Source of the DNA: Nitrosopumilus sp.
Lineage (GTDB): Archaea; Thermoproteota; Nitrososphaeria; Nitrososphaerales; Nitrosopumilaceae
Assembly: GCF_025699125.1 (NCBI RefSeq)
Contig: NZ_JAILWC010000001.1
Span: 724,204 to 788,203 of the forward strand
Direction: 5' to 3'
Length of the DNA: 64,000 bases
Part shown: positions 10,169-55,773 of the stretch, in pieces
Layout: the number at the start of each line of letters is the position of its first letter
Position numbering within the stretch: position 1 is the first letter of the stretch
Notes under the pieces: generated by a model
Told to the model about the DNA's origin: nothing
Databases searched by the model: none
Seen by the model: the letters and a program-made list of their open reading frames with translations, nothing else
Translations under genes and position numbers: made by a program

Positions 10169-10387
10169 ATGAATACGTGTAAAGGAGTATGCATAAAATA
10201 TAAAATTAAGAACTTCAATGGAAATACTAGATATAAAAACAACCAGAAACGTTGCCCTCAATGTAGTGTTTACCTAAATTGTTCTGATGTGAGGTGTCCT
10301 TGCTGTCGTTGTATTTTACGTATTACTCCAAGAGCTGGAAAATCACGTAAACTATTCCAAGAAAGGAAAAATCGCTCTAGATATTAG
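10169..10387 (+). CDS. Small Cys-rich zinc-binding protein (paralogue at 20703-20906)
   Basis: A 72-residue basic protein with C-x3-C near the N-terminus, an N-x-R-Y segment, then QKRCPQC and RCPCC pairs and a basic tail. The same layout (C-x3-C, G-x-R-Y, GQKRCxxC, RCPCC) occurs in the gene at 20703-20906, so the two are paralogues. The paired CxxC motifs indicate a structural zinc or similar metal site. Function unknown. It may bind nucleic acid given its charge. Confidence 0.75.
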   Translation: MNTCKGVCIKYKIKNFNGNTRYKNNQKRCPQCSVYLNCSDVRCPCCRCILRITPRAGKSRKLFQERKNRSRY

Positions 10388-15435: not shown

Positions 15436-15642
15436 AATCATTCCTAAAATAGCCACCAATTAAAAGTCAATATTTCCTAATCTAAATTATAGTTCAAAGA
15501 TAAAACTAAGAAATCATAAATTTAACATACAAAAAATGATTTTTGAAATTAAGTTCAAGTGTGTTTAACAAACTTAGCTAAACTCTATCAAGATCACTTG
15601 TGTAGAAGCCTTTTTCAATGTAAAAAATTTCATTCATAATAT

Positions 15643-16722
15643 ATGAAATATTTCATAATTTTCTTGGTTTTGGCAAGCTTTGCAATACTCGTGCCACAAT
15701 CTTTTGCCGAGTGCACCTCATTACCGTGTGATGATGCCAATATCAAACTAGGTGAGCCAAACTATCGATTTGTTGATTTTTCATATGCAAATACAGTTGA
15801 AGACTCGATTAGATTCGTTTTGGAAAGAACTGGATACGGGAATTGTACTCCATATAATGCTGAGATAACTGACGAAGACGGCAATCTTGTATGGGGAGAA
15901 GCTACTTTTGCTCTATGTGATCCAATCACAAACCCTTCTTTGATTACGTCACAAATCAAAATCGGCTACAATGAAGATAATCCCATAATCATCAAAGAGT
16001 CTGGAACATATTTTATCAAAGTGCAAATTGATGACGGAAGCATAGAGCAAGAATTTATTGTAAGGCAAAATCATACTGGCATATCTCTTGATAAAACAGT
16101 TTACCCTGTTCCGTGGATGATAGAATCTCCACTAAAACAAGTCAAAGATGGAGTGCCAATCAATTTAATCAAATGTAATGAATCATTACAGCTTGAATGG
16201 AAACTAGATTTACAACCCATTTGTATTACAAGTGAAACAGCAGGAGAATTAATCAAAAGAGGAGTAATCAAACTTCGACTTGGAATGCCTGCTGAAAATA
16301 TAACCCAAGAAAGACTATGCGTATGGTATCCTGAAAATCCACTAATTCAGAGACACTGTGATTGGAAAACTAACATCCTGTTTACATTCAAAGATGAAGG
16401 ATTAGTTCCGGCATATGATGAAATACTACGTTTGTATGCAATGGAGAAAAGACAACTATTTCGAGATTTTCAATCTAATATTCAAGAAAAATATGGTTCT
16501 GAACATATGTGGGAATTATTGCCATCCCATTATAGAGGATATGATTATCATCGAGACGCTTTAGAGTTTGGAATACATCATGAAGTATTTGATGAAGAAT
16601 CGGCTCCAAAATACGTTGAATTTATCCGAAGTATTATTGGAGAAAATGTGAACCTTACTGTTAGACCTGCTTACCCTATAGTACCTCAATCTTTTCCTAC
16701 TGGAGAATTTTCTGAGGACTAG
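15643..16722 (+). CDS. Secreted protein leading MKTR operon 1
   Basis: A signal peptide (MKYFIIFLVLASFAILVPQSFA) is nearly the same as that of the gene leading operon 2 at 41572. A beta-rich region follows, then PLKQVKDGVPIN and the motif I-K-C-N-E-S-L ... P-I-C-I ... L-I-K-R-G, recurrent in secreted thaumarchaeal proteins. The C-terminal 150 residues (W-D/Y/H-rich) are of unknown fold. Three bases separate it from the next ATG. Likely extracellular; function unknown. Confidence 0.7.
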   Translation: MKYFIIFLVLASFAILVPQSFAECTSLPCDDANIKLGEPNYRFVDFSYANTVEDSIRFVLERTGYGNCTPYNAEITDEDGNLVWGEATFALCDPITNPSLITSQIKIGYNEDNPIIIKESGTYFIKVQIDDGSIEQEFIVRQNHTGISLDKTVYPVPWMIESPLKQVKDGVPINLIKCNESLQLEWKLDLQPICITSETAGELIKRGVIKLRLGMPAENITQERLCVWYPENPLIQRHCDWKTNILFTFKDEGLVPAYDEILRLYAMEKRQLFRDFQSNIQEKYGSEHMWELLPSHYRGYDYHRDALEFGIHHEVFDEESAPKYVEFIRSIIGENVNLTVRPAYPIVPQSFPTGEFSED

Positions 16723-16725
16723 AAG

Positions 16726-17232
16726 ATGAAAACTAGACTTTGGATAGTAATTTTAGCAATAATTACAATGATATTTTCTGTCACTTTTACATACATTTCA
16801 TATCAAATGAACGTATGTCAAATGGATCCTGCTTTTTTTCATAATCCAAGAATGAATGGTGTTTGGGATTGTCTAGAATACTTGGCAAATCCAGATCCTA
16901 GTTTACCTGATCTGAAGCCATCTATTGATTATGATGCTAGATTTGTAGATATTGCAATTTTAGAAATAATTTTGATTGCAGGTGGCACTTGTTGCATATT
17001 ATTTTTTACAACTAAGAGAATGAAAAAACCTCCTTTTTCTATATGTCTGATTATTGCAGGATTTAGTTTGTTGATGATCTTTACTTTCTTACTACCTGTA
17101 TTCATTGACAGTCGTTTGATACCTGTTCATAGCAACATTCCGATGGTTATCTTGTATGGCGGTTGGATTTTGTTGGGAGTTGGAATGTGGCAAATACTTT
17201 CACATAGATTTGCAATGGTGAAAAATAAATGA
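16726..17232 (+). CDS. MKTR-family membrane protein
   Basis: It begins MKTRLWIVILAIITMIFS, then has an extracellular loop C-Q-M-D ... HNPRMNGVWDCLEYL, followed by three more membrane helices. The H-x-P-R...W-x-C-L-x-Y-L loop also occurs in the proteins at 17765 and 54445, so they share an N-terminal module. Its stop overlaps the next start (ATGA). Confidence 0.7.
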   Translation: MKTRLWIVILAIITMIFSVTFTYISYQMNVCQMDPAFFHNPRMNGVWDCLEYLANPDPSLPDLKPSIDYDARFVDIAILEIILIAGGTCCILFFTTKRMKKPPFSICLIIAGFSLLMIFTFLLPVFIDSRLIPVHSNIPMVILYGGWILLGVGMWQILSHRFAMVKNK

Positions 17233-17768
17233 ACATCTTTCTATTGACTGCCATCATTTCTGCGGTATTGCTAATTTCAGTTCCAAATTCGTTTGCAAGT
17301 TGTATTGTCAATGAAGACTGGCTTGATGCTCCATGTCTTGACTCGCTGGTAAATGGGAGATACAATCAAGAGGAAGTAAACAAATGGAGTCAGTACTATT
17401 CCTACAAAGGCACTGAATTCATGGAACAAAAACGCTCTGAACTTGAAAAGGCAATCAATGAAAACACCCTGCAAGAATGGGCAGATGAATCAATTCAGAA
17501 CAGAAATGTTTACGAGTATTACTTTTTTTCTGGAAGGGCTCCAAACACTGGTGAATACCGCGGGCAGTTTGATGAGTTTATGATTCGTGAAAGTTCAACG
17601 ATTCATGATCCATACATTGATGATGAAAGATACCAATTAGCATCAAACAAAGTTGAACTTGGAGGTCTTGGTATTGATCCAGACTTTGATGTGTATGTTA
17701 TAGTTGCTGTAGTTTTGTCTGGAATTGGCATTGGAGTTGGTTTGCTGTTTTTTTGGAGAAGAAAATGA
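17229..17768 (+). CDS. Secreted protein with C-terminal membrane anchor
   Basis: A signal peptide (to SFAS) is followed by a Cys-containing region (SCIVNEDWLDAPCLDSLV), a helical E/Q-rich middle, and a C-terminal helix (VYVIVAVVLSGIGIGVGLLFF) ending WRRK. The last codons overlap the start of the next gene. No recognised domain. Third gene of operon 1. Confidence 0.65.
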   Translation: MNIFLLTAIISAVLLISVPNSFASCIVNEDWLDAPCLDSLVNGRYNQEEVNKWSQYYSYKGTEFMEQKRSELEKAINENTLQEWADESIQNRNVYEYYFFSGRAPNTGEYRGQFDEFMIRESSTIHDPYIDDERYQLASNKVELGGLGIDPDFDVYVIVAVVLSGIGIGVGLLFFWRRK

Positions 17769-18640
17769 AAAGTAGAGTATTGATAATTATTGGAATTGTT
17801 TTAGCATCTGTTGTACTGATAAGCTCAGTTTATGCTATTTCTGTTCAAAACAGGTGTGAATCTTTGCTTGGCTTTACACATTATCCACGCCCACCTACTC
17901 TGTGGAATTGCTTGGATTATTTGAGAATGGTTGACAATCCTCCGCCAAAATCAATACCTGAACCCGAGTTAGATTCCACTGTTCATGAAATCTGCGGATC
18001 TGGAACAACACTGCAAGATGGTATCTGTGTAGTTGAAGAATCCAAAAAAACATTGGATGGAACAGGTGCCTATGAATTAGATGAAGCGTTATGCATAGGC
18101 GGTAGAGGCTATATTAAAAATGACGAGTGTGAAAGAATTGGAAAATATGACATTCAAACAGGAATACCAATAGTTGAAAACAAAGTACAGTGTGACTTGC
18201 TAAATGGCACTTGGTATGCTGAACAAGACAAATGTGATTCTAAATATGCCCCTACAGAATATCGACTCCAATTTGGCAATTCATTTCTAGGGTATGACAT
18301 ACCACAAATTTGTACATATGACATAATGAAGCATTTGGCAAAATATTCAAATTTGTTAGATAAAAAATTTGTTGGAGAATATGGTATTGAGGACATAGGA
18401 TTACCAGATGGTGTAACTCAAGAGAAGTTAGATGAATGCGCTGATTTTATCTTTAAACAAAGAATAAAATTATTAGAAAATACAGATGTCAAGACTACGC
18501 TTGAAGAAGTTTTAGAAAGTTGTGCTAATGATTCTCCAAAAGAAAGAATGGAAAATATATTACGATACACAAATGAGACCCATGTTTTTTTGAACTTGGA
18601 GTGTGAATGGAAAAAAATTGGAAAATATTTGGGTGAGTAA
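17765..18640 (+). CDS. MKTR-family secreted protein with NETH-CEW C-terminus
   Basis: The start is taken as the ATG at 17765 overlapping the previous stop (ATGA), not the TTG at 17753. The N-terminal 63 residues (MKSRVLIIIGIVLASVVLIS ... HYPRP ... NPPPKS) match the protein at 54445 at 47 of 63 positions by my count. The remainder is unrelated to it: Cys-rich repeats around 80-160, then LESC ... YTNETHVFLNLECEW, an end shared with the protein at 40311. The mosaic is consistent with domain shuffling. Function unknown. Confidence 0.7.
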   Translation: MKSRVLIIIGIVLASVVLISSVYAISVQNRCESLLGFTHYPRPPTLWNCLDYLRMVDNPPPKSIPEPELDSTVHEICGSGTTLQDGICVVEESKKTLDGTGAYELDEALCIGGRGYIKNDECERIGKYDIQTGIPIVENKVQCDLLNGTWYAEQDKCDSKYAPTEYRLQFGNSFLGYDIPQICTYDIMKHLAKYSNLLDKKFVGEYGIEDIGLPDGVTQEKLDECADFIFKQRIKLLENTDVKTTLEEVLESCANDSPKERMENILRYTNETHVFLNLECEWKKIGKYLGE

Positions 18641-18643
18641 AAA

Positions 18644-19168
18644 ATGAAGACTAGAGTTTTGATAATATTTACATTGTGTATTTTTTCATTATTCTCATTT
18701 ATTCCTCATGATGCATATGCTTGTTCATGTGTTTCATATCCTGATTATTTGAGAATCTTGATGGAATCAAAGTCTGCATTTCAGGGAACTGTTACAAAAA
18801 TAATAGAAAATGGTAATTATGAAAAAATTTATTTTGATATAACCTTCCCACAAAAAGGAATTTCAAATGCTGATGAGCATGCCATTGAGCAATTAACATT
18901 GAGCAGTTGCTCAGTAAATTACAAAATTGGTGAAACCTATCAAGTTTTTACGCATAATAATAATGGAATATCTGGAACAACAGGCATTTGTGATACAAAA
19001 CAAATCACTGGATTTAGTGAATATTCACATGAAGATGAGAATGGTCAAATAGAGTATTACAGGGAAGATTACAACATTTTAACTCAATACAACCTTGGAA
19101 CCATAATTATTCCTGTAGCCATAGCGATAATAATTCCAAGTTTTGTTGTTTGGAGAAAAAGAAAATGA
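18644..19168 (+). CDS. MKTR-family protein with TIMP/netrin-like Cys start
   Basis: It starts MKTRVLIIFTLCIFSLFSF. The predicted mature N-terminus is CSCVSYPDY, the C-x-C start seen in tissue inhibitor of metalloproteinase/netrin (NTR)-like domains, with further Cys at SSCSVNYKIG and GICDT. A C-terminal helix ends VWRKRK. NTR-like is a pattern-level inference. The last codons overlap the next ATG. Confidence 0.65.
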   Translation: MKTRVLIIFTLCIFSLFSFIPHDAYACSCVSYPDYLRILMESKSAFQGTVTKIIENGNYEKIYFDITFPQKGISNADEHAIEQLTLSSCSVNYKIGETYQVFTHNNNGISGTTGICDTKQITGFSEYSHEDENGQIEYYREDYNILTQYNLGTIIIPVAIAIIIPSFVVWRKRK

Positions 19169-19461
19169 AGACTAGATACAAAATTCCTATTATTGTGATT
19201 GTAGGATTTCTTGTGTTTTGGATATTTACCCCAACCATTGCCCTACACTCTTGTAATGCACTTGAAATAGATTGGAAAACTAATTGGTTTTGTAATGTTA
19301 ATGGAGAACTGATTAATCAAACTTTTGTGTGGGATCCTAACCTTTCTAGTAATCCCACAATTCGACTAATTGATCAAATGACTCAACCAAAAACCTGTAC
19401 TGATGATAAAAATGATAAATCATTGCCATCATGTGATGAAGTTGGTCAAGGATTTCAATGA
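19165..19461 (+). CDS. Small MKTR-family secreted protein
   Basis: A 98-residue protein starting MKTRYKIPIIVIVGFLVFW at the ATGA overlap (the upstream TTG at 19150 is inside the previous gene). There is one N-terminal helix, then a short extracellular part with four Cys. No recognised domain. Confidence 0.6.
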   Translation: MKTRYKIPIIVIVGFLVFWIFTPTIALHSCNALEIDWKTNWFCNVNGELINQTFVWDPNLSSNPTIRLIDQMTQPKTCTDDKNDKSLPSCDEVGQGFQ

Positions 19462-20246
19462 ATACTAGACTTGTGATAATCGTTGGAATGGTGACTGTAT
19501 TTGCAGGAGTTGGCATTGCATATGGCATTAATCAGTATGATTACTATCAGGATCAAAAACAATATGAAGAATGGAGAGATATTAGAGAGTCCATACTGTC
19601 TGAAATAAGAGAAAGTAAAAACCGTAATCAAACAATACAAACTACAGATATTGGTTCGATGTCTGATGAAGAACGATGTGCATGGACTTTCGATAATTCC
19701 ATGAATGAGTTTGTAAGGGAACAAGAAAAGTACAACGATTCACGTGACACAGTATCAAAACCATTATCAGAAGACCAAATAGTATCAACTTCAATACAGT
19801 TCGCTAAATGGCGTGGCGATGGATGTGCATTTTCAATTCCAGAATGGGCGCATTTATCAATCTATGAGAACTGGGTTTGGGAAAATATTGCACCGACATT
19901 CAAAATTAAGGGATTACATTCCCGTATGGTAGTTAATGAACCGATATTCATAACGATTGAGAAAATTGGCTATCATATGTGTGATTCATGGGATGCACGG
20001 ATAGTTGATTTTAAAGACAATGCCACAATATGGAAGAAGACATATCATTCAGGATGTGTTATTGCAGACCATACAACACCGAAACTATTCCAATTTACAA
20101 TATCCAATGAAATCCACCCTGTAGTAATTTCTACTCTTGGTAACTATACATTTCAGATAGAAATTGGTCACATATTTTTGAAAAAGGATTTTACCGTAAT
20201 CGAATATTTTGAAGACATAGTAATGTATGAAGAATGGGACAAATGA
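19458..20246 (+). CDS. MKTR-family secreted protein, last gene of operon 1
   Basis: It starts MNTRLVIIVGMVTVFAGVG, overlapping the previous stop. A helical E/R/Q-rich region leads to a beta-sandwich-like domain (LHSRMVVNEPIFITIEKIGY, then TFQIEIGHIFLKKDFTV), resembling the extracellular domain of other archaeal surface proteins. Function unknown. Confidence 0.65.
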   Translation: MNTRLVIIVGMVTVFAGVGIAYGINQYDYYQDQKQYEEWRDIRESILSEIRESKNRNQTIQTTDIGSMSDEERCAWTFDNSMNEFVREQEKYNDSRDTVSKPLSEDQIVSTSIQFAKWRGDGCAFSIPEWAHLSIYENWVWENIAPTFKIKGLHSRMVVNEPIFITIEKIGYHMCDSWDARIVDFKDNATIWKKTYHSGCVIADHTTPKLFQFTISNEIHPVVISTLGNYTFQIEIGHIFLKKDFTVIEYFEDIVMYEEWDK

Positions 20247-20702: not shown

Positions 20703-20906
20703 TCACCTATTTTCAAAATTTTTATTTTTATGTCTACTTCTAGGCTTTGATCGCAATCGAGTTTTGCAACAAGGGCATCGACTTTCTTCAATGTAAAAGT
20801 AATGAGCACATAATGAACATCGCTTTTGACCTGCTGAATAACGCATGCCATTTTTAACAGGAACTGTTTTCAGTCGTTCACATAGTCCAATACAGGTTTG
20901 GGCCAT
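20703..20906 (-). CDS. Small Cys-rich zinc-binding protein (paralogue of 10169-10387)
   Basis: 67 residues: C-x3-C (CIGLC), then G-M-R-Y, GQKRCSLC, SRCPCC and a basic tail (KPRSRHKNKN). Same layout as the protein at 10169. Four Cys pairs suggest one or two zinc sites. The gene has its own promoter inside the inverted repeat at 20921-20964. Function unknown. Confidence 0.75.
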   Translation of the reverse strand: MAQTCIGLCERLKTVPVKNGMRYSAGQKRCSLCAHYFYIEESRCPCCKTRLRSKPRSRHKNKNFENR

Positions 20907-25722: not shown

Positions 25723-25854
25723 GTGTGGTTGTCAAGAGATTTGTATAACCGACAAAGTGTAAGGAATGTTTTTGGTTTTGGTAAGATTAAATTCACTAAC
25801 TTTCGGAACCAAAATCTTAGCAATTTTAAAATTTAGAGAGAAAATAACAACCTC

Positions 25855-38569: not shown

Positions 38570-38665
38570 TTGCACGCCAAGAAGTGATTTCCGAGCTGGT
38601 GGCTTAGGTTACCAGTCGTAAATTCTTCCGCTAGCAACTTCGGTTGCTAGTGACATTAATTCATT
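38570..38665 (+). ncRNA. Candidate structured RNA with two stem-loops
   Basis: Contains a first stem from GAAG (38581) through CTGGT ... ACCAG to CTTC (about 38628), about 16 paired bases with small internal loops, and a second perfect 8-bp stem CTAGCAAC-TTCG-GTTGCTAG (38631-38650) closed by a cUUCGg tetraloop. The flanks TTGCACGCCAA and GACATTA recur at 41719-41774. The UUCG loop orients it on the plus strand. It sits between converging genes. No known family recognised. Confidence 0.6.
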
Positions 38666-38863
38666 ATTCAACAAATTAGAATAATCATTACATCTATTGA
38701 GAGTGTCAAACTAAAACTTCAACACCATAATGGAGTTAGAGAATTAAACCAATCTACAAATTCCACTTTAAGAAAAATCAATCAAAATTATTTTGAATTA
38801 AATAGTTAGGGTTTGCGAGCTTATTTATTTCAGCGATCCGATCAAAACCATCAATTCAAAAGA

Positions 38864-39064
38864 CTATTGAAATTGTGCAGGATGGCTTAACTTAAAACAA
38901 CCCACTAGTAATTCAGGAGAATCTGAAAAGTAACCAAACATGTCTTTTATCTTACAATCAAGTGGAATGTAAGAATATCCTGCAACATTATTTGTTACAA
39001 AAAATAAAGTAGTAACAGAGATTATTACTGTAATAATACAAAAAAGAAAAAGCCTAGTCTTCAT
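38864..39064 (-). CDS. Small MKTR-family protein, last gene of operon 2
   Basis: The start at 39064 overlaps the upstream stop (ATGA). 66 residues: MKTRLFLFCIITVIISVTTL, one membrane helix, then a short extracellular part with two Cys (PLDC, LVGC). Reduced to its N-terminal module, it may be a truncated relative of longer MKTR proteins. Confidence 0.55.
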   Translation of the reverse strand: MKTRLFLFCIITVIISVTTLFFVTNNVAGYSYIPLDCKIKDMFGYFSDSPELLVGCFKLSHPAQFQ

Positions 39065-39729
39065 TTCTTTACTTTCCATATCAACATAACAGGTACTACA
39101 ACATACATCCCAACAATCAGTACAATAGTAGACAACCCATACAAAATAACATCAAGTTCTGAACCTTCTGCAAAAGTCATGATAGATAATGTCGTAACCA
39201 TAGGAGTGATGAACAGTTTAACAGATTCTTTGAATATAGGACTATCATCTTCCCATTGTGCAATAGTCGGAGAAAACAAGTAATAGATTGAGTTAAAGCC
39301 ACTCATGAATATTTTCCCAGATTCTGTGTTTAGCAAAATGTTATCTCTAATTTCACGTAACATTTGTACCTGAGGTGCCAACTCTGAACCATATGATGCA
39401 GTAGCTATCAAGCAATCACCATGAGTTGTTTGCAATTTTAAAACATGGCAAGAACCATCTACAAATGCTGTTCCTTTACCACATACAGGTATTTCTAACC
39501 ATGTGCAAGTTTCAGATGAAAGAAAATGAGTTGAATTGTTATGGAATAAATCATCTTTTAGAATTGGTTTATCCTGTAATGTACAATATCTTTCCAATTG
39601 TTCTCTAGATTCATCTGATTCGGGATGCAAAGTTGTATCAACTAGAAACTGAGTAGCTAAAACAGTCGTGAGTGAAGAGAAAGACAGAATCACAGCAAAT
39701 GCAACAATTATCAAAAGTCTAGTTTTCAT
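39061..39729 (-). CDS. MKTR-family protein with CFI-box (CLIATASYGSE) domain
   Basis: It starts MKTRLLIIVAFAVILSFSSL. An extracellular Cys-containing part follows, then CLIATASYGSELAPQ and REIRDNILLNTESGKIF, the CFI-box-type domain found at the ends of archaeal surface proteins, and membrane helices ending WKVKK. The last codons overlap the next MKTR start. Confidence 0.7.
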   Translation of the reverse strand: MKTRLLIIVAFAVILSFSSLTTVLATQFLVDTTLHPESDESREQLERYCTLQDKPILKDDLFHNNSTHFLSSETCTWLEIPVCGKGTAFVDGSCHVLKLQTTHGDCLIATASYGSELAPQVQMLREIRDNILLNTESGKIFMSGFNSIYYLFSPTIAQWEDDSPIFKESVKLFITPMVTTLSIMTFAEGSELDVILYGLSTIVLIVGMYVVVPVMLIWKVKK

Positions 39730-39732
39730 TTT

Positions 39733-40311
39733 CTAATCAACCACAAAATATCCAATTCTTTTCCATTCGCATTCCAAGTTCAAAAGAGCATGAGTCTCAT
39801 TTGTATATCGCAAGATGTTTTCCGTTCTTTCTTTGTGGGAGTCATTATTGCAACTATCTAGTACTTTTTGGAGAGAAGAATTTGGACTACAATCCAATAG
39901 TTTGTCTATTAGAATATCTGATTCCTTGACATTTACAAATTCAGGATTCCAAATTTTTTGATATTCCTCACAAGGCATTTTATGCAACTCATTGATAGGA
40001 TAGTGCTTAACATTACCACTAGAATCATCTATTGCAAACCCGTCTATTGAGTCTGGATTGTAATTTACGTCATGATCAGACTTGTCAATTTTAGAATCTT
40101 CATTTGTGTCTGTAATTGTATCTACAGAACGACAATTTTGTGGAGGTTGCCATAACCACTCATCACAAACAACCGTCTGTCCTTCCATTGGAGGGATGTA
40201 CGACATTTCGTTAGTGCCCCATGTTCTGTAATTAATTGTAGGATATACAACTGCTGTAAGTAAAAATACGGTGATAGATATTCCAACTATTATCAATATT
40301 CTAGTTTTCAT
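39733..40311 (-). CDS. MKTR-family secreted protein with NETH-CEW end
   Basis: It starts MKTRILIIVGISITVFLL. The body is Asn/Asp-rich. The end has CNNDSHKERTENILRYTNET and then LNLECEW, nearly the same as the end of the protein at 17765 (CANDSPKERMENILRYTNET). The N-terminus differs from that protein, so shared C-terminal modules sit on different starts. Function unknown. Confidence 0.65.
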   Translation of the reverse strand: MKTRILIIVGISITVFLLTAVVYPTINYRTWGTNEMSYIPPMEGQTVVCDEWLWQPPQNCRSVDTITDTNEDSKIDKSDHDVNYNPDSIDGFAIDDSSGNVKHYPINELHKMPCEEYQKIWNPEFVNVKESDILIDKLLDCSPNSSLQKVLDSCNNDSHKERTENILRYTNETHALLNLECEWKRIGYFVVD

Positions 40312-40317
40312 TTCACA

Positions 40318-40797
40318 TTAATTCCCAAATCCCGTCCACAGCCATATTGCGGTGCCTCCAATCAGAACTGCAATAAAATAGATGTATGGGATTCGTCGCC
40401 ATAATGGAATTCCTTTTGAAAATATTGTTGTGATTGGTATTGATACCATTGATAGAATCCAGAAACTCAAGATCAGGATAGATTCATCTCCAGATGTTGG
40501 AAATTGACCAGATATTACTGAAACCCAAGGAAGCCATATGCCCACTCCAGCTATGATAAATGGAATTATAAATGAAAAATTGCTAAAACCAGTAACAAAT
40601 GAAGTATCTAAATGGATTCTGTCTCGAGTAACCATATCATTCTTGGTGGTTCCGTTTTCAAACACAGTTACTATATCAACAGGCATTGTTTCTGATGTCT
40701 GGGTTGCAATAACGATACCCAATACAACTATTGAAAATACTGTAAAAAAATATCCAATTAAAATTGAGAGCAATATCTTTTCATTTTTTTGAATCAT
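40318..40797 (-). CDS. Four-helix membrane protein of operon 2
   Basis: 159 residues with four hydrophobic helices and a short extracellular loop. It overlaps the lead gene of the operon by 17 bases. No motif recognised. Confidence 0.6.
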   Translation of the reverse strand: MIQKNEKILLSILIGYFFTVFSIVVLGIVIATQTSETMPVDIVTVFENGTTKNDMVTRDRIHLDTSFVTGFSNFSFIIPFIIAGVGIWLPWVSVISGQFPTSGDESILILSFWILSMVSIPITTIFSKGIPLWRRIPYIYFIAVLIGGTAIWLWTGFGN

Positions 40798-41572
40798 TTT
40801 CTAACTCCACCCAAGCACAATCAATACTGTCAATATGATGGGTTTCATTTTGCCATTGGATAATAGGGTTAATGCATGGGCCTCCTGATTCCTGACAACC
40901 ACAAAGATCTAAGACTTTTTGCAACATGGGGTTATCGTTTTTTGTCCATCCCCTATCAACCAGATTCTGTTTTGTTGGTTCCGTTACACATGCAGGAGAG
41001 CCATCATACTTTTGGATTAGAACTAAGTCATCATTACATTGTATGTTTTCAGAATCCATTCCAACATGACTTTGTTTTAACGGAGGATAAATTTTAGGAG
41101 AACTATTTGGAATTTTATCAAACTGGTATATGCCAGTATCAAATCTTGGAGTAGAAGAAATTAATTCAACTTCATCAGACGATATTGTCGCATAAAATCT
41201 CCATGATACAATCTCATTGTCTTTGAATATTCGGTATGGTTGCTCCACACCATTTATCAGCACCAACACAGAGTCAGGGGTTTTTACATAATCTGTTGCA
41301 AGTAGATCTGAAAATGTTTGCTCATTCATGGTTATGGTATAAGTGTCAATAAAATCCTCAGAGGCAGACGTTGAAAAAATCAAAGATCTATCTTCATGGT
41401 CATATGCCATGTCAGTAAAGTAATTGGTGTTTGATTGAGCTAGAACAGAGTATTGTTTTGAATCTACAGTCAATGGAATATGGTAAAAATCAGCGCCCCC
41501 CTGATATTGAGCAAATGCAACTGAAGGAATCAAAAACCCAATCAGAACAAGAAAAATCACAAAATACTTCAT
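40781..41572 (-). CDS. Secreted protein leading MKTR operon 2
   Basis: A signal peptide (MKYFVIFLVLIGFLIPSVAFA) very like that at 15643. It has PLKQSHVG, IQCNDDLVLIQKYDGSPACV ... LVDRGW, and a NETH ... IDCAW end as in the MKTR proteins. Same role in its operon as the 15643 gene has in operon 1. Extracellular, function unknown. Confidence 0.7.
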   Translation of the reverse strand: MKYFVIFLVLIGFLIPSVAFAQYQGGADFYHIPLTVDSKQYSVLAQSNTNYFTDMAYDHEDRSLIFSTSASEDFIDTYTITMNEQTFSDLLATDYVKTPDSVLVLINGVEQPYRIFKDNEIVSWRFYATISSDEVELISSTPRFDTGIYQFDKIPNSSPKIYPPLKQSHVGMDSENIQCNDDLVLIQKYDGSPACVTEPTKQNLVDRGWTKNDNPMLQKVLDLCGCQESGGPCINPIIQWQNETHHIDSIDCAWVELENDSKK

Positions 41573-41718
41573 ACCGTATGAAATTTTATATCATCATTGA
41601 AAAGTTCTTCGAATCTTTTGTTAACTAAAATGGTTCTTATTGGGTCACAAACCAACACTGATTTTACAAAACTTACTCCCAATACCATAAACCACTAGCT
41701 CGTTGATCGTATGCTAAA

Positions 41719-41774
41719 TTGCACGCCAACAAACCTAGAGTGGCAACATTGTTGTTGCTCTAGGACATTACATT
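41719..41774 (+). repeat. Hairpin element related to 38570-38665
   Basis: Shares TTGCACGCCAA (41719-41729) and GACATTA with the structured RNA at 38570, plus a hairpin (CCTAGAG 41734-41740 ... CTCTAGG 41758-41764, with CAACA/TGTTG inside). It lacks the first long stem of that element. The end includes the stop codon of argS, so it also serves as its 3' hairpin. The two copies flank MKTR operon 2. Confidence 0.5.
41734..41764 (-). terminator. Hairpin directly after argS
   Basis: Twelve paired bases with a 3-nt bulge start 4 nt past the argS stop on the minus strand and are followed by TTT. It may terminate or stabilise argS mRNA. Confidence 0.45.
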
Positions 41775-53077: not shown

Positions 53078-53110
53078 CTAATCAAGCATTATCAAAAGTC
53101 TAGTTTTCAT
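53078..53110 (-). pseudogene. Remnant 5' end of an MKTR gene
   Basis: Reads M-K-T-R-L-L-I-M-L-D-stop, the first seven codons the same as the start of the gene at 39729 (MKTRLLI), then off frame. It follows the stop of the gene at 53118 by 7 bases, where a next cassette would start. It is too short to be a functional protein. Confidence 0.6.
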
Positions 53111-53117
53111 TTTCTTC

Positions 53118-53309
53118 TCAAAATGCATTTGTAAAACTCCTAAACCAGTCAACCCATCGTGGTTCTAGTTTGCATATTGATGTACAAACATAATTCTCAG
53201 GTGCGTCTGGTGGAATGATACATGGTTTGCATGTCATGTCTGCCATAGACCATATGGCAAATGAAACTATTGTGCCAATTAATGCAAAAATAATGTGGCG
53301 GTATTTCAA
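53118..53309 (-). CDS. Small secreted protein of MKTR locus 3
   Basis: 63 residues. An N-terminal helix (HIIFALIGTIVSFAIW) is followed by a short extracellular region with four Cys (CKPC, VCTSIC). It overlaps the upstream gene by 4 bases. Confidence 0.55.
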   Translation of the reverse strand: MKYRHIIFALIGTIVSFAIWSMADMTCKPCIIPPDAPENYVCTSICKLEPRWVDWFRSFTNAF

Positions 53310-54445
53310 TTTCCCTCAACTTTGCATCCCGTCTCTCCGGGAAGACAATAAACTTGGAACTTGAATAGAATTGTTTTTGCAGAAATATCATCAGTCACAT
53401 CAACGTATGCAAGAAGTGTTTTGATATCATCAAAGATTTTTGGAATCTCCCAAGAGAATACAAACCTTCCAGAGTCATCAGTTCTTCCCGTAAAGTCTCG
53501 AATTATATTCTCACCATAATCTTCTATTGTAATTCTTACAAGTGCATCTGAGACAGCATACCCATCTCGTGTTACATTAACTACAATATCATGTGTTGTT
53601 CCACGCCTTACTTGTTGTTGTCCTGTAACTTCAACTTGTATACCAGAAGGGGCAGTTGGTTCAAGTTCAGATTCTGGTTCAGGGATTGGTTCTGGTTCTC
53701 CTGAAACATAATCAGAATCAGGAGTATACGTAACATGAGGCACATCAAGATTCATCGATTCTATAATTGGAAGTAAAGCATCAGTGGTGCCGTTCCACCA
53801 AACATCCACTTTCATTCTATCCTCTCGGAATATCTTTACAGACGACAAGGTCTGAGCATCATAGTCGATTCCTTCTGCATATGTTCCATTCAGATCATAG
53901 ATCTTCTTGTTTTCCAGTCTTGGAATGTCTTCAAGATAATACGTCATGTTGAAGTTTTTGCCCATAGAGTGATGTATTATTACCAAGGCTCCATATTGCG
54001 CATAATAGTTATCTGCAACATATGGTGAGATGTCCATTTTGAAATCTTCAGGAAGATAGGTTATGGTTGCACGAGTTTTTTGTTTGTCAATTTTGATAGT
54101 ATCTAATGCATAACCTTGAGGCAAATATGACGGGATACTCAATTCAAAGTCCACAGTTGACTCTGCATTCTGAATTGATTTGACATATGTATCCGTAATC
54201 TTATGACCTGTGTCTTCTGGAATAGGAACCTGTTGGGGTTCAGGTATTACAGTGGAAGATTTTGGTGGAGGATTTTCAATCATGCTCAAATAATGTAAAC
54301 AAGTCCACAGAGTAAGTGGACGCGGATAATGCCTATCGCCAAGCATAGTTTCACATTTATTTTGAACAGAAATAACATAAAATGAGCTTATTAACACAAC
54401 AGATGCCAAAACAATTCCAATAATGATTAAAGCTCTAGTGTTCAT
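53306..54445 (-). CDS. MKTR-family surface protein with Ig-like domain
   Basis: It starts MNTRALIIIGIVLASVVLIS and shares 63 N-terminal residues with 17765 (47 identical by my count). Beyond NPPPKS it is unrelated: a beta-rich domain (residues 85-245), a Pro/Glu linker, and a bacterial Ig-like/cohesin-type end (VTRDGYAVSDALVRITI ... FTGRTDDSGRFVF). Extracellular; function unknown. Confidence 0.75.
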   Translation of the reverse strand: MNTRALIIIGIVLASVVLISSFYVISVQNKCETMLGDRHYPRPLTLWTCLHYLSMIENPPPKSSTVIPEPQQVPIPEDTGHKITDTYVKSIQNAESTVDFELSIPSYLPQGYALDTIKIDKQKTRATITYLPEDFKMDISPYVADNYYAQYGALVIIHHSMGKNFNMTYYLEDIPRLENKKIYDLNGTYAEGIDYDAQTLSSVKIFREDRMKVDVWWNGTTDALLPIIESMNLDVPHVTYTPDSDYVSGEPEPIPEPESELEPTAPSGIQVEVTGQQQVRRGTTHDIVVNVTRDGYAVSDALVRITIEDYGENIIRDFTGRTDDSGRFVFSWEIPKIFDDIKTLLAYVDVTDDISAKTILFKFQVYCLPGETGCKVEGN

Positions 54446-54448
54446 TTT

Positions 54449-54700
54449 CTATTCTACACAAATGTATTCTATTTTTTCACCGCAGTATGGACAGTAATTC
54501 ATTGGGAAAAACGCAATGTTTCCATCTACGCTGATATCCTTGAAATGGAATTTTGCCCATTTGATATTCCAAAGTTGGAAATGCTTGTCATGTTCTCTGA
54601 GTTGCTTGCAGCACCACCAAGTTCTGTGAGTATCAACTCGAAATTCTGTAAATTTTTCACATGTAGGATCATCAAAGTGTTTGGTGTAGAATACTTTCAA
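54449..54700 (-). CDS. Small Cys/His-containing protein, hypothetical
   Basis: 83 residues. CEKF, WWCC, CPYCGE and a terminal Cys form a possible zinc-ribbon (YCPYCGEKIEYICVE). First gene of locus 3, three bases before the MKTR start. Family unknown. Confidence 0.6.
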   Translation of the reverse strand: MKVFYTKHFDDPTCEKFTEFRVDTHRTWWCCKQLREHDKHFQLWNIKWAKFHFKDISVDGNIAFFPMNYCPYCGEKIEYICVE

Positions 54701-54840: not shown

Positions 54841-54892
54841 TACCCACTGTTTTTTCATAAAATTAACAATATTTATTAAATTACAGTGGGTA
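54841..54892. promoter_or_regulatory. 10-bp inverted repeat spanning the Fic promoter and start
   Basis: TACCCACTGT (54841-54850) and ACAGTGGGTA (54883-54892) are exact inverted copies. They enclose the A/T-rich promoter (ATATTTATTAAA about 54869-54880), and the right arm covers the GTG start at 54886. This suggests autoregulation. Confidence 0.6.
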
Positions 54893-55773
54893 CTAAAACT
54901 GTGGTCTCTGTTATTTCAAGGGAGAAAAATGGGAAAAAATACTATTCCCTAAAACACACCACTGGGAACAGGCAAAAAGAAAAGTATCTTGGATTGAGAG
55001 TTCCAAAAAACATTGAAGAGATAAAAAAAGAATTTCTGCTGGAATTTTATCATGAGCAATGGGATACACAAATAGGGACAATAGCAAAAAACTACCAAAA
55101 AGAGGTAAAAAACAAACCCCCATCAATAAAGCAAAAAGACTTTGAGAGTTTTGGAATATCATTTACATACAACACACAGAGAATGGAGGGTTCAAGTCTA
55201 ACTGAGGCAGATACCAGGGACTTGCTGATACATGGAGTAACACCTACCAAAAAATCCCAGATTGACAGCATAGAGACTAAAAAGCACTACGATCTGTTCA
55301 TGAAACTTGTAACATCAAAGAACACAAAGATTACAAAGAAGACGGTGATGGATTGGCACAAAGAAATTTTTGGTCAGACAAAAATTGGCGAGGCAGGCAA
55401 TCTCAGAACGTATCGTGTCGGCGTAATTACAAATGACAAGATAGAGTTTGCTCCAGTACAAAAGATTCCAGAAAGAATGGATTCGTTTTTCAAATGGCTA
55501 AACAAAAACAAAACAACAAACTTTGTAGAACTTGCAGCACTTGCTCATTATTACTTTGTAACCATCCATCCATTTGGAGATGGGAACGGAAGGATATCCA
55601 GGCTGATTATGAACTACATCCTGTTTGTCCATGGATGTCCGTTTATGCAGATCAAAAACAACGACAGACGCACATATTTTAAGGCATTAGAGAAATCTCA
55701 GATTAAAAGAGATGAAATTCATTTTCTAAAGTGGTTTATGAGATATTACATTAAATCAAACAGGAATTTATGA
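54886..55773 (+). CDS. Fic-domain protein (class II, with inhibitory helix)
   Basis: 295 residues. Residues 228-236 are HPFGDGNGR followed by ISR, the complete catalytic Fic motif (H...D/E-G-N-G-R). The inhibitory motif T97-x3-E101-G102 (TQRMEG) lies N-terminal, as in class II Fic proteins, so the enzyme is probably self-inhibited until modified. Fic enzymes transfer AMP or other nucleotides to target hydroxyls. The N-terminal 50 residues are beta-rich and may be a targeting part. GTG start is inferred from the inverted repeat context. Confidence 0.9.
   Translation: MGTKTVVSVISREKNGKKYYSLKHTTGNRQKEKYLGLRVPKNIEEIKKEFLLEFYHEQWDTQIGTIAKNYQKEVKNKPPSIKQKDFESFGISFTYNTQRMEGSSLTEADTRDLLIHGVTPTKKSQIDSIETKKHYDLFMKLVTSKNTKITKKTVMDWHKEIFGQTKIGEAGNLRTYRVGVITNDKIEFAPVQKIPERMDSFFKWLNKNKTTNFVELAALAHYYFVTIHPFGDGNGRISRLIMNYILFVHGCPFMQIKNNDRRTYFKALEKSQIKRDEIHFLKWFMRYYIKSNRNL

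Follow-up and report, generated by a model that had tools for sequence, protein, structure and literature searches.

Why do genes at three separate loci of a Nitrosopumilus sp. genome (G000 below) open with nearly the same nucleotides and then continue as different proteins? The loci lie in a 64-kb stretch of DNA, hereafter the window, at 15590-20246 (+; locus 1), 38570-41729 (-; locus 2), and 53081-54700 (-; locus 3). A sequence-only reading of the window had proposed that the common 5' sequence, which encodes an MKTR-type start and a hydrophobic helix, could serve as an exchange point for whatever lies downstream, in the manner of a cassette array for surface proteins. Conserved gene order in relatives was to count as its refutation; when relatives were aligned, order was not conserved and homology switched at the motif. 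We therefore hold with good confidence that these loci are operon-like arrays of mobile single-gene cassettes, exchanged at the very start of translation, (TAG)AAAATGAAAACTAGA.

The three loci are all genuine. The motif ATGAANASTAGA has 9 matches in the window, against a mean of 0.18 and a maximum of 2 in dinucleotide shuffles, and its longer form, ATGAARACTAGA..TTGATAAT, matches 4 times where 0 are expected (motif starts are listed in Table 1). The second start of locus 3, at 53110, had been taken for a gene but is not live, reading MKTRLLIMLD-stop. Overlaps of the ATGA type are present as described at 17229, 17765 (WRRK-stop), 19165 (WRKRK-stop), and 19458. That the downstream parts are unrelated is true of most genes but not of the 17765 product, which matches the 54445 product over approximately its first 65 residues and the 40311 product over its last ~40. 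It looks like the N-terminal part of the former joined to the C-terminal part of the latter, so mosaicism extends to the interior of genes as well.

The phenomenon is larger than the window, with a second array in the genome and a second shared start that is described below. Across the whole genome ATGAANACNAGANNNNTNATNAT has 13 matches (reversed control, 0), all confined to the window and to one 40-kb array at C1:342.8-383 kb, where ~17 further motif starts are found. By its named argS relatives, the organism belongs to Nitrosopumilus. Arrays also occur in related Nitrosopumilus genomes, and ATGAAAACTAGANNNNTGATAAT is present in 34 of 250 genomes of the family (control, 0/250), spread over 4 of its 22 genera. 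It was absent from genus g14 (31 genomes, recovered at sizes of 0.7-1.2 Mb).

Comparison of arrays from 15 genomes shows exchange at the motif. Ends of homologous blocks (high-scoring segment pairs) fell there 263 times overall against 29 expected, and the excess appeared in the first 5 genomes (80 vs 6.2 by circular shifting), in the added regions (34 vs 5), and in G062, G064, and G081 (55 vs 8). In the first 5 genomes the ends peak at +10..+19 where the homology lies on the left and at -10..-1 where it lies on the right. Within the same spans, a breakpoint was found at 50 of the 92 motif sites (54%), compared with 20 of 303 other gene starts (7%). Cross-species junction pairs with a homologous flank were called at a score of 35, as a score of 20 gave many chance matches in controls; homology was confined to the left in 63 pairs and to the right in 46, and lay on both sides in 5. 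Three of those 5 represent a motif-like stretch inside one gene (MKTREQ), leaving 109 one-sided pairs against 2 two-sided ones, whereas ordinary co-directional junctions in the same arrays were two-sided in 19 of 34 cases and one-sided in the other 15.

Individual genes tell the same story. Downstream of a 77-aa gene ending in CPFCGEKIEYISVE, each of six species has a different gene, the switch lying at ATGAAAACTAGA; all six genes open with ATGAAAAC[T/C]AG[A/G], and the one in G000 is short and probably broken. Seven single motif-to-motif units of 195-836 bp each occur in two species with unrelated neighbors on both sides, among them a 425-bp unit (G052 522321-522746 = G081 240202-240627) and a 382-bp unit (G000 368747-369129 = G094 1099145-1098763). 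The proposed role of the common 5' sequence as an exchange point is supported by these intact moved units and by the excess of one-sided pairs. As judged from these alignments, each cassette extends between two successive motifs, and it is precisely at the motif that gene content changes, both between and within species.

The window can also be read directly against the sister species G094, in which argS is 95% identical and long stretches are collinear. Locus 2 is absent there: G094 has a single TTGCACGCCAA where the window holds a 3.1-kb locus between two copies. At the dead start of locus 3, everything downstream is conserved backbone and everything upstream is different. The body of the 18644 cassette of locus 1 has an orthologue in G013 (1531277), where another gene stands to its left. 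No motif was found within 6 kb downstream of argS in ~65 relatives with enough flank, on which ground the 3' side of argS was rejected as a general hotspot; locus 2 is so far private there.

What the starts have in common is DNA and not merely protein. Among 134 non-redundant starts, defined at the protein level and compared with gene bodies, Thr-3 is ACT in 91% (37% in bodies; p 1e-33), Leu-5 is CTT in 62% (22%), Leu-6 is TTG in 90% (23%; p 2e-44), and Ile-7 is ATA in 78% (27%; p 4e-27). Because codons are fixed up to codon 7 and usage is near background from codon 8 on, with leader codons 9-25 normal, the nucleotides themselves must be shared. The position profile is conserved from approximately -13 to +22 and contains no inverted repeat. 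All three frames are closed within the junction TAGAAAATGAAAACTAGA, by TAG at -6, TGA at +1 (the ATGA overlap), and TAG at +8; the junction also holds the start codon, the first helix residues, and often a purine-rich stretch resembling a Shine-Dalgarno (SD) sequence. Any gene on the left is thus ended in whatever frame it is read and any gene arriving on the right is started, and the ACT-AGA codons are fixed because they hold a TAG. Upstream genes end at junction stops at 119 of the 187 sites with an open frame upstream (+1 in 53, +8 in 39, and -6 in 27). Of the +8 class, 27 end in NEN, for which the codons are supplied by AATGAAAAC in the start of the following gene. Many genes thus close with ..K-stop (ATGA) or ..NEN-stop, residues that belong to the start of the next cassette, and the junction accounts for the recurrent WRKRK and NEN tails.

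We propose that exchange would proceed by recombination between identities of 12-25 bp, either RadA-type or microhomology mediated, the incoming DNA being drawn from the same genome as well as from other strains and species. The motif would be kept by selection, as only junctions that preserve expression would survive. Each array would be led by an MKYF head gene with its own promoter-like block, and the exported or membrane-anchored products may be a varying repertoire used when the cell meets other cells, proteases, or viruses. Several points weigh against this proposal. The identical run between unrelated junctions has a median of 15 bp, which is short for standard homologous recombination; it fits either recombination at very short identities or a site-specific enzyme. 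No exchange enzyme and no consistent array-linked recombinase was found. MKTR junctions from one genome resemble each other no more closely than those from different genomes, and concerted evolution within genomes was not seen in that comparison, which points to a cross-species pool or to selection on the sequence and not to gene conversion within genomes. The pair counts are non-independent, and the regions were picked because they hold the motif. Exchange is read from genome comparison, and we infer surface location, from N-terminal hydrophobic helices and cargo domains, and function for proteins most of which match no family.

The strongest competitor to short-identity recombination is a dedicated site-specific recombinase that takes the start motif as its site and mobilizes cassettes there, by analogy with integron integrases or mycoplasma Xer1. 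Confinement of breakpoints to ~12-16 bp and constancy of the motif across species rather than per genome are what such an enzyme would produce, and tyrosine recombinases lie within ~20 kb of arrays in several genomes (G052:514670, G062:1442382, G064:631337, and G000:724224). These candidates belong to different families, however, and none is near the G013 or G031 arrays, so a common array-linked tyrosine recombinase was rejected. Serine recombinases were absent from 14 genomes. The attC core pair (RYYYAAC/GTTRRRY) occurred in 0 of 220 junctions, no junction forms a hairpin, and junctions fold less than control DNA. On this evidence we consider the enzyme possible but doubtful. A broader version, in which Nitrosopumilaceae possess a dedicated recombination system that uses the start-codon motif as its site and builds exported-protein operons from a cross-species gene pool, is equally tentative; if true, it would be an integron-like device in which one sequence is recombination site, three-frame stop, ribosome-binding site, start codon, and membrane anchor. 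As for viral carriers and tRNA anchors, no IMG/VR contig contained the 23-mer, and ARAGORN detected no tRNA gene in either the window or the G000 array; among the other loci scanned, two held three tRNA genes between them.

Could the motif simply be a favored translation start or signal-anchor sequence in genes that rearrange at random? Starts that are A-rich, fold weakly, and carry an SD-like stretch do favor expression, and other gene starts in the arrays also give some one-sided matches. Selection of this kind does not explain synonymous codons fixed at codons 3-7 beside a normal leader, nor the difference in breakpoint frequency between motif sites and other starts, and we regard such convergence as improbable. 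Less probable still is an origin of the genes from one ancestral family by tandem duplication and rapid divergence, with only the 5' end kept. Relatedness among some bodies, with C-terminal modules in common (one single-linkage cluster has 66 members), speaks for it, but the cargo includes unrelated folds (serpin, MG2, TIMP-like, cupredoxin, and PQQ propeller), and orthologous bodies change neighbors on one side exactly at the motif. Finally, assembly chimeras at repeats can hardly be responsible: several genomes are fragmented and probably metagenome assembled, but repeats this short (12-25 bp) fall well under the length of a read or an assembly word, and the complete single-contig genomes G094, G052, G013, G054, G062, and G064 show the same pattern.

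Table 1. Features of the three cassette loci in the window.
Feature	Position	Strand	Basis or comparison
Promoter-like block upstream of locus 1 head gene (..AGAAGCCTTTTTCAATG..ATTTCAT..)	15590..15642	+	Common to other MKYF heads in this and related genomes
Locus 1 head gene MKYFIIFLVLASF, 359 aa, WING-49 domain	15643..16722	+	ORF; NF058652 E 1.7e-13
Junction TAGAAGATGAAAACTAGA, head gene stop and first cassette start	16720..16737	+	Sequence, motif
Cassette MKTRLWIVI, 168 aa	16726..17232	+	ORF, motif
Gene MNIFLLTAII, 179 aa, starts in ATGA overlap, FFWRRK-stop end within next junction	17229..17768	+	ORF, sequence
Junction AAGAAAATGAAAAGTAGA	17759..17776	+	Sequence, motif
Cassette MKSRVLIII, 291 aa; N part like 54445, C part like 40311	17765..18640	+	ORF, motif; body match to 54445
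Junction TAAAAAATGAAGACTAGA	18638..18655	+	Sequence, motif
Cassette MKTRVLIIF, 174 aa, VVWRKRK end	18644..19168	+	ORF, motif
Junction AAGAAAATGAAGACTAGA	19159..19176	+	Sequence, motif
Cassette MKTRYKIPI, 98 aa	19165..19461	+	ORF, motif
Junction ATTTCAATGAATACTAGA	19452..19469	+	Sequence, motif
Cassette MNTRLVIIV, 262 aa, final one of locus 1	19458..20246	+	ORF, motif
Left direct repeat of locus 2 insertion, TTGCACGCCAA	38570..38580		One copy at empty site in G094
Cassette MKTRLFLFC (motif start 39064, ATGAAGACTAGG)	38864..39064	-	ORF; body has an orthologue in G081 (251620)
Cassette MKTRLLIIV, 222 aa, CFI-box-CTERM (motif 39718-39729)	39061..39729	-	NF041770 E 1.9e-20
Cassette MKTRILIIV, 192 aa (motif 40300-40311)	39733..40311	-	ORF, motif
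Gene MIQKNEKILLS, 159 aa, non-motif start, overlaps head gene	40318..40797	-	ORF
Locus 2 head gene MKYFVIFLVLIGF, 263 aa, WING-49 domain	40781..41572	-	ORF; NF058652 E 3.5e-19
Promoter-like block of locus 2 head gene	41573..41625	-	Head-block comparison
Right direct repeat of locus 2 insertion, TTGCACGCCAA	41719..41729		One copy at empty site in G094
Dead cassette start ATGAAAACTAGACTTTTGATAATGCTTGAT-stop	53081..53110	-	Alignment; backbone/array breakpoint vs G094 here
63-aa ORF in ATGA overlap with cassette before	53118..53309	-	ORF
Cassette MNTRALIII, 379 aa (motif 54434-54445)	53306..54445	-	Right side of breakpoint relative to G094
Left gene MKVFYTKHFDD, 83 aa	54449..54700	-	Kept in G094, there followed by another cassette

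The second constant start, MK(Y)FxIFLVLIG, heads window loci 1 and 2 behind a conserved upstream block, and we read the pair as a promoter plus first gene. The block is AACATCAGAAGCACTTTTCAATGA..ATTTCATACGGT in most species and has another version in G013; head blocks are more alike within genomes than between them. One body, AYASFTDSILVQVD.., begins with the internal type of start in G000; in G094 its start is of the head type, promoter block included. A motif was seen once (G000 349161) directly before a head block. At the other end, some arrays have a tail element, ATGAAAACTAGRGTTCAAACC.., after the last gene. The motif is followed by GTTCAAACC.. instead of a gene at L015 12950-13030, G013 1532276 and 879561, and G081 268880; this sequence, in some cases with a potential hairpin, appears to be an array tail. 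A separate ~750-bp repeat is present in two copies with 96% identity (G000 C1:345100-345900, L016, and C1:379040-379790, L015), each directly preceding a cassette gene of the big G000 array.

Searches with 102 cassette proteins left most without a family. The matches were to serpin (2 members, best E 1e-115), alpha-2-macroglobulin MG2, TIMP-like, cupredoxin/amicyanin, and PQQ propeller families, and WING-49 was matched in 17. Because the set was built so that all 102 carry a hydrophobic stretch at the N terminus, we infer export from that stretch; the products are N-terminally anchored and probably exported. Four cassette proteins match cupredoxin/amicyanin and one weakly matches ammonia monooxygenase subunit B (AmoB; 2e-7); all five are possible copper proteins in the pool. 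No PADLOC match was obtained for the window proteins tested.

Several neighbors of the arrays were recorded. Window positions 1-22175, with locus 1 inside, form an island that is missing at the collinear place in G094 and that opens with a 505-aa tyrosine recombinase (G000:C1:724224). Conversely, at window 25781-25799 G094 holds a 13.8-kb insertion (1035923-1049705) with short repeats at the joint; one of its genes starts much like members of the 505-aa integrase family, and the insertion is probably an integrated element. A family of small, Arg-rich, Cys-rich (CxxC..CPCC) proteins is encoded at window 20706-20906 (-) and 10175-10366 (+), with 16 matches in array regions of several species (e.g., G052 515559, G081 269941, and G094 1296103). 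Its genes lie mostly within a few kilobases of motif sites, and it is a candidate DNA-binding factor. A Fic/DOC-family protein (54886-55773; PF02661, E 2.7e-21) adjoins locus 3; G094 retains its orthologue, with a different array in between.

The arrays resemble several known systems in part. Like integron arrays, including archaeal integrons (PMC9668308), they are tandem, co-oriented, single-gene cassettes in which the unit runs from one junction to the next, and their content and order differ between relatives. Unlike integrons, they lack attC cores and hairpins, and the junction is a start codon and not a site after the gene. IntI was not identified beside the arrays, where nearby tyrosine recombinases are of several families and the IntI-specific domain was not searched. 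The vpma, vsp, and vsa loci of mycoplasmas, with Xer1, Mbr, or HvsR, are also surface-gene families whose bodies recombine at a shared 5' region (PMC2268961). Switching at those loci is by DNA inversion, which places one gene behind a single promoter, and the vpma sites lie in the 5' untranslated region (-1 to -72) with an adjacent recombinase (PMC2268961). Here the cassettes all run in one operon direction, gene content varies between species, and there is no dedicated adjoining recombinase. The co-directional, overlapping layout argues against expression of one gene at a time by inversion.

Among archaea, the VARTIG modules of Thermococcales are likewise exported-protein islands with extensive cross-species shuffling (PMC8416519). 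They concern the hypervariable C-terminal immunoglobulin (Ig) domain of one large protein, their recombination sites were not located, and their authors report no counterpart outside Thermococcales (PMC8416519). In the arrays described here the junction is pinned to ~15 bp at gene starts, and no large Ig-domain protein (arCOG07710) is the array head; both window heads carry WING-49, and no Ig-type Pfam family occurred among the 102 cassette proteins. Polymorphic toxin cassettes also combine a constant 5' part with exchangeable 3' parts (PMC3482391), but here whole genes are swapped and the constant part is only ~7-8 codons. The 4-nt stop/start overlaps are those of ATGA pairs, which couple translation in archaea by termination-reinitiation (PMC6728339); here the overlap sequence is common to unrelated genes, is the recombination junction, and is joined by an additional 11-nt (NEN-stop) class. 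A start-codon gene-shuffling arrangement was not found described in the open-access literature searched.

Earlier studies of archaeal hypervariable islands could not locate recombination sites, and the junction described here offers a base-level handle on how abundant, ammonia-oxidizing marine archaea diversify exported proteins. Since it joins the end of the left gene in any frame to the start of the right gene and the anchor of its product, foreign genes could be slotted into an operon and be expressed immediately. The presence of three protease-inhibitor types among the cargo (serpin, TIMP-like, and alpha-2-macroglobulin-like) suggests that part of this repertoire may protect the cells against extracellular proteases.

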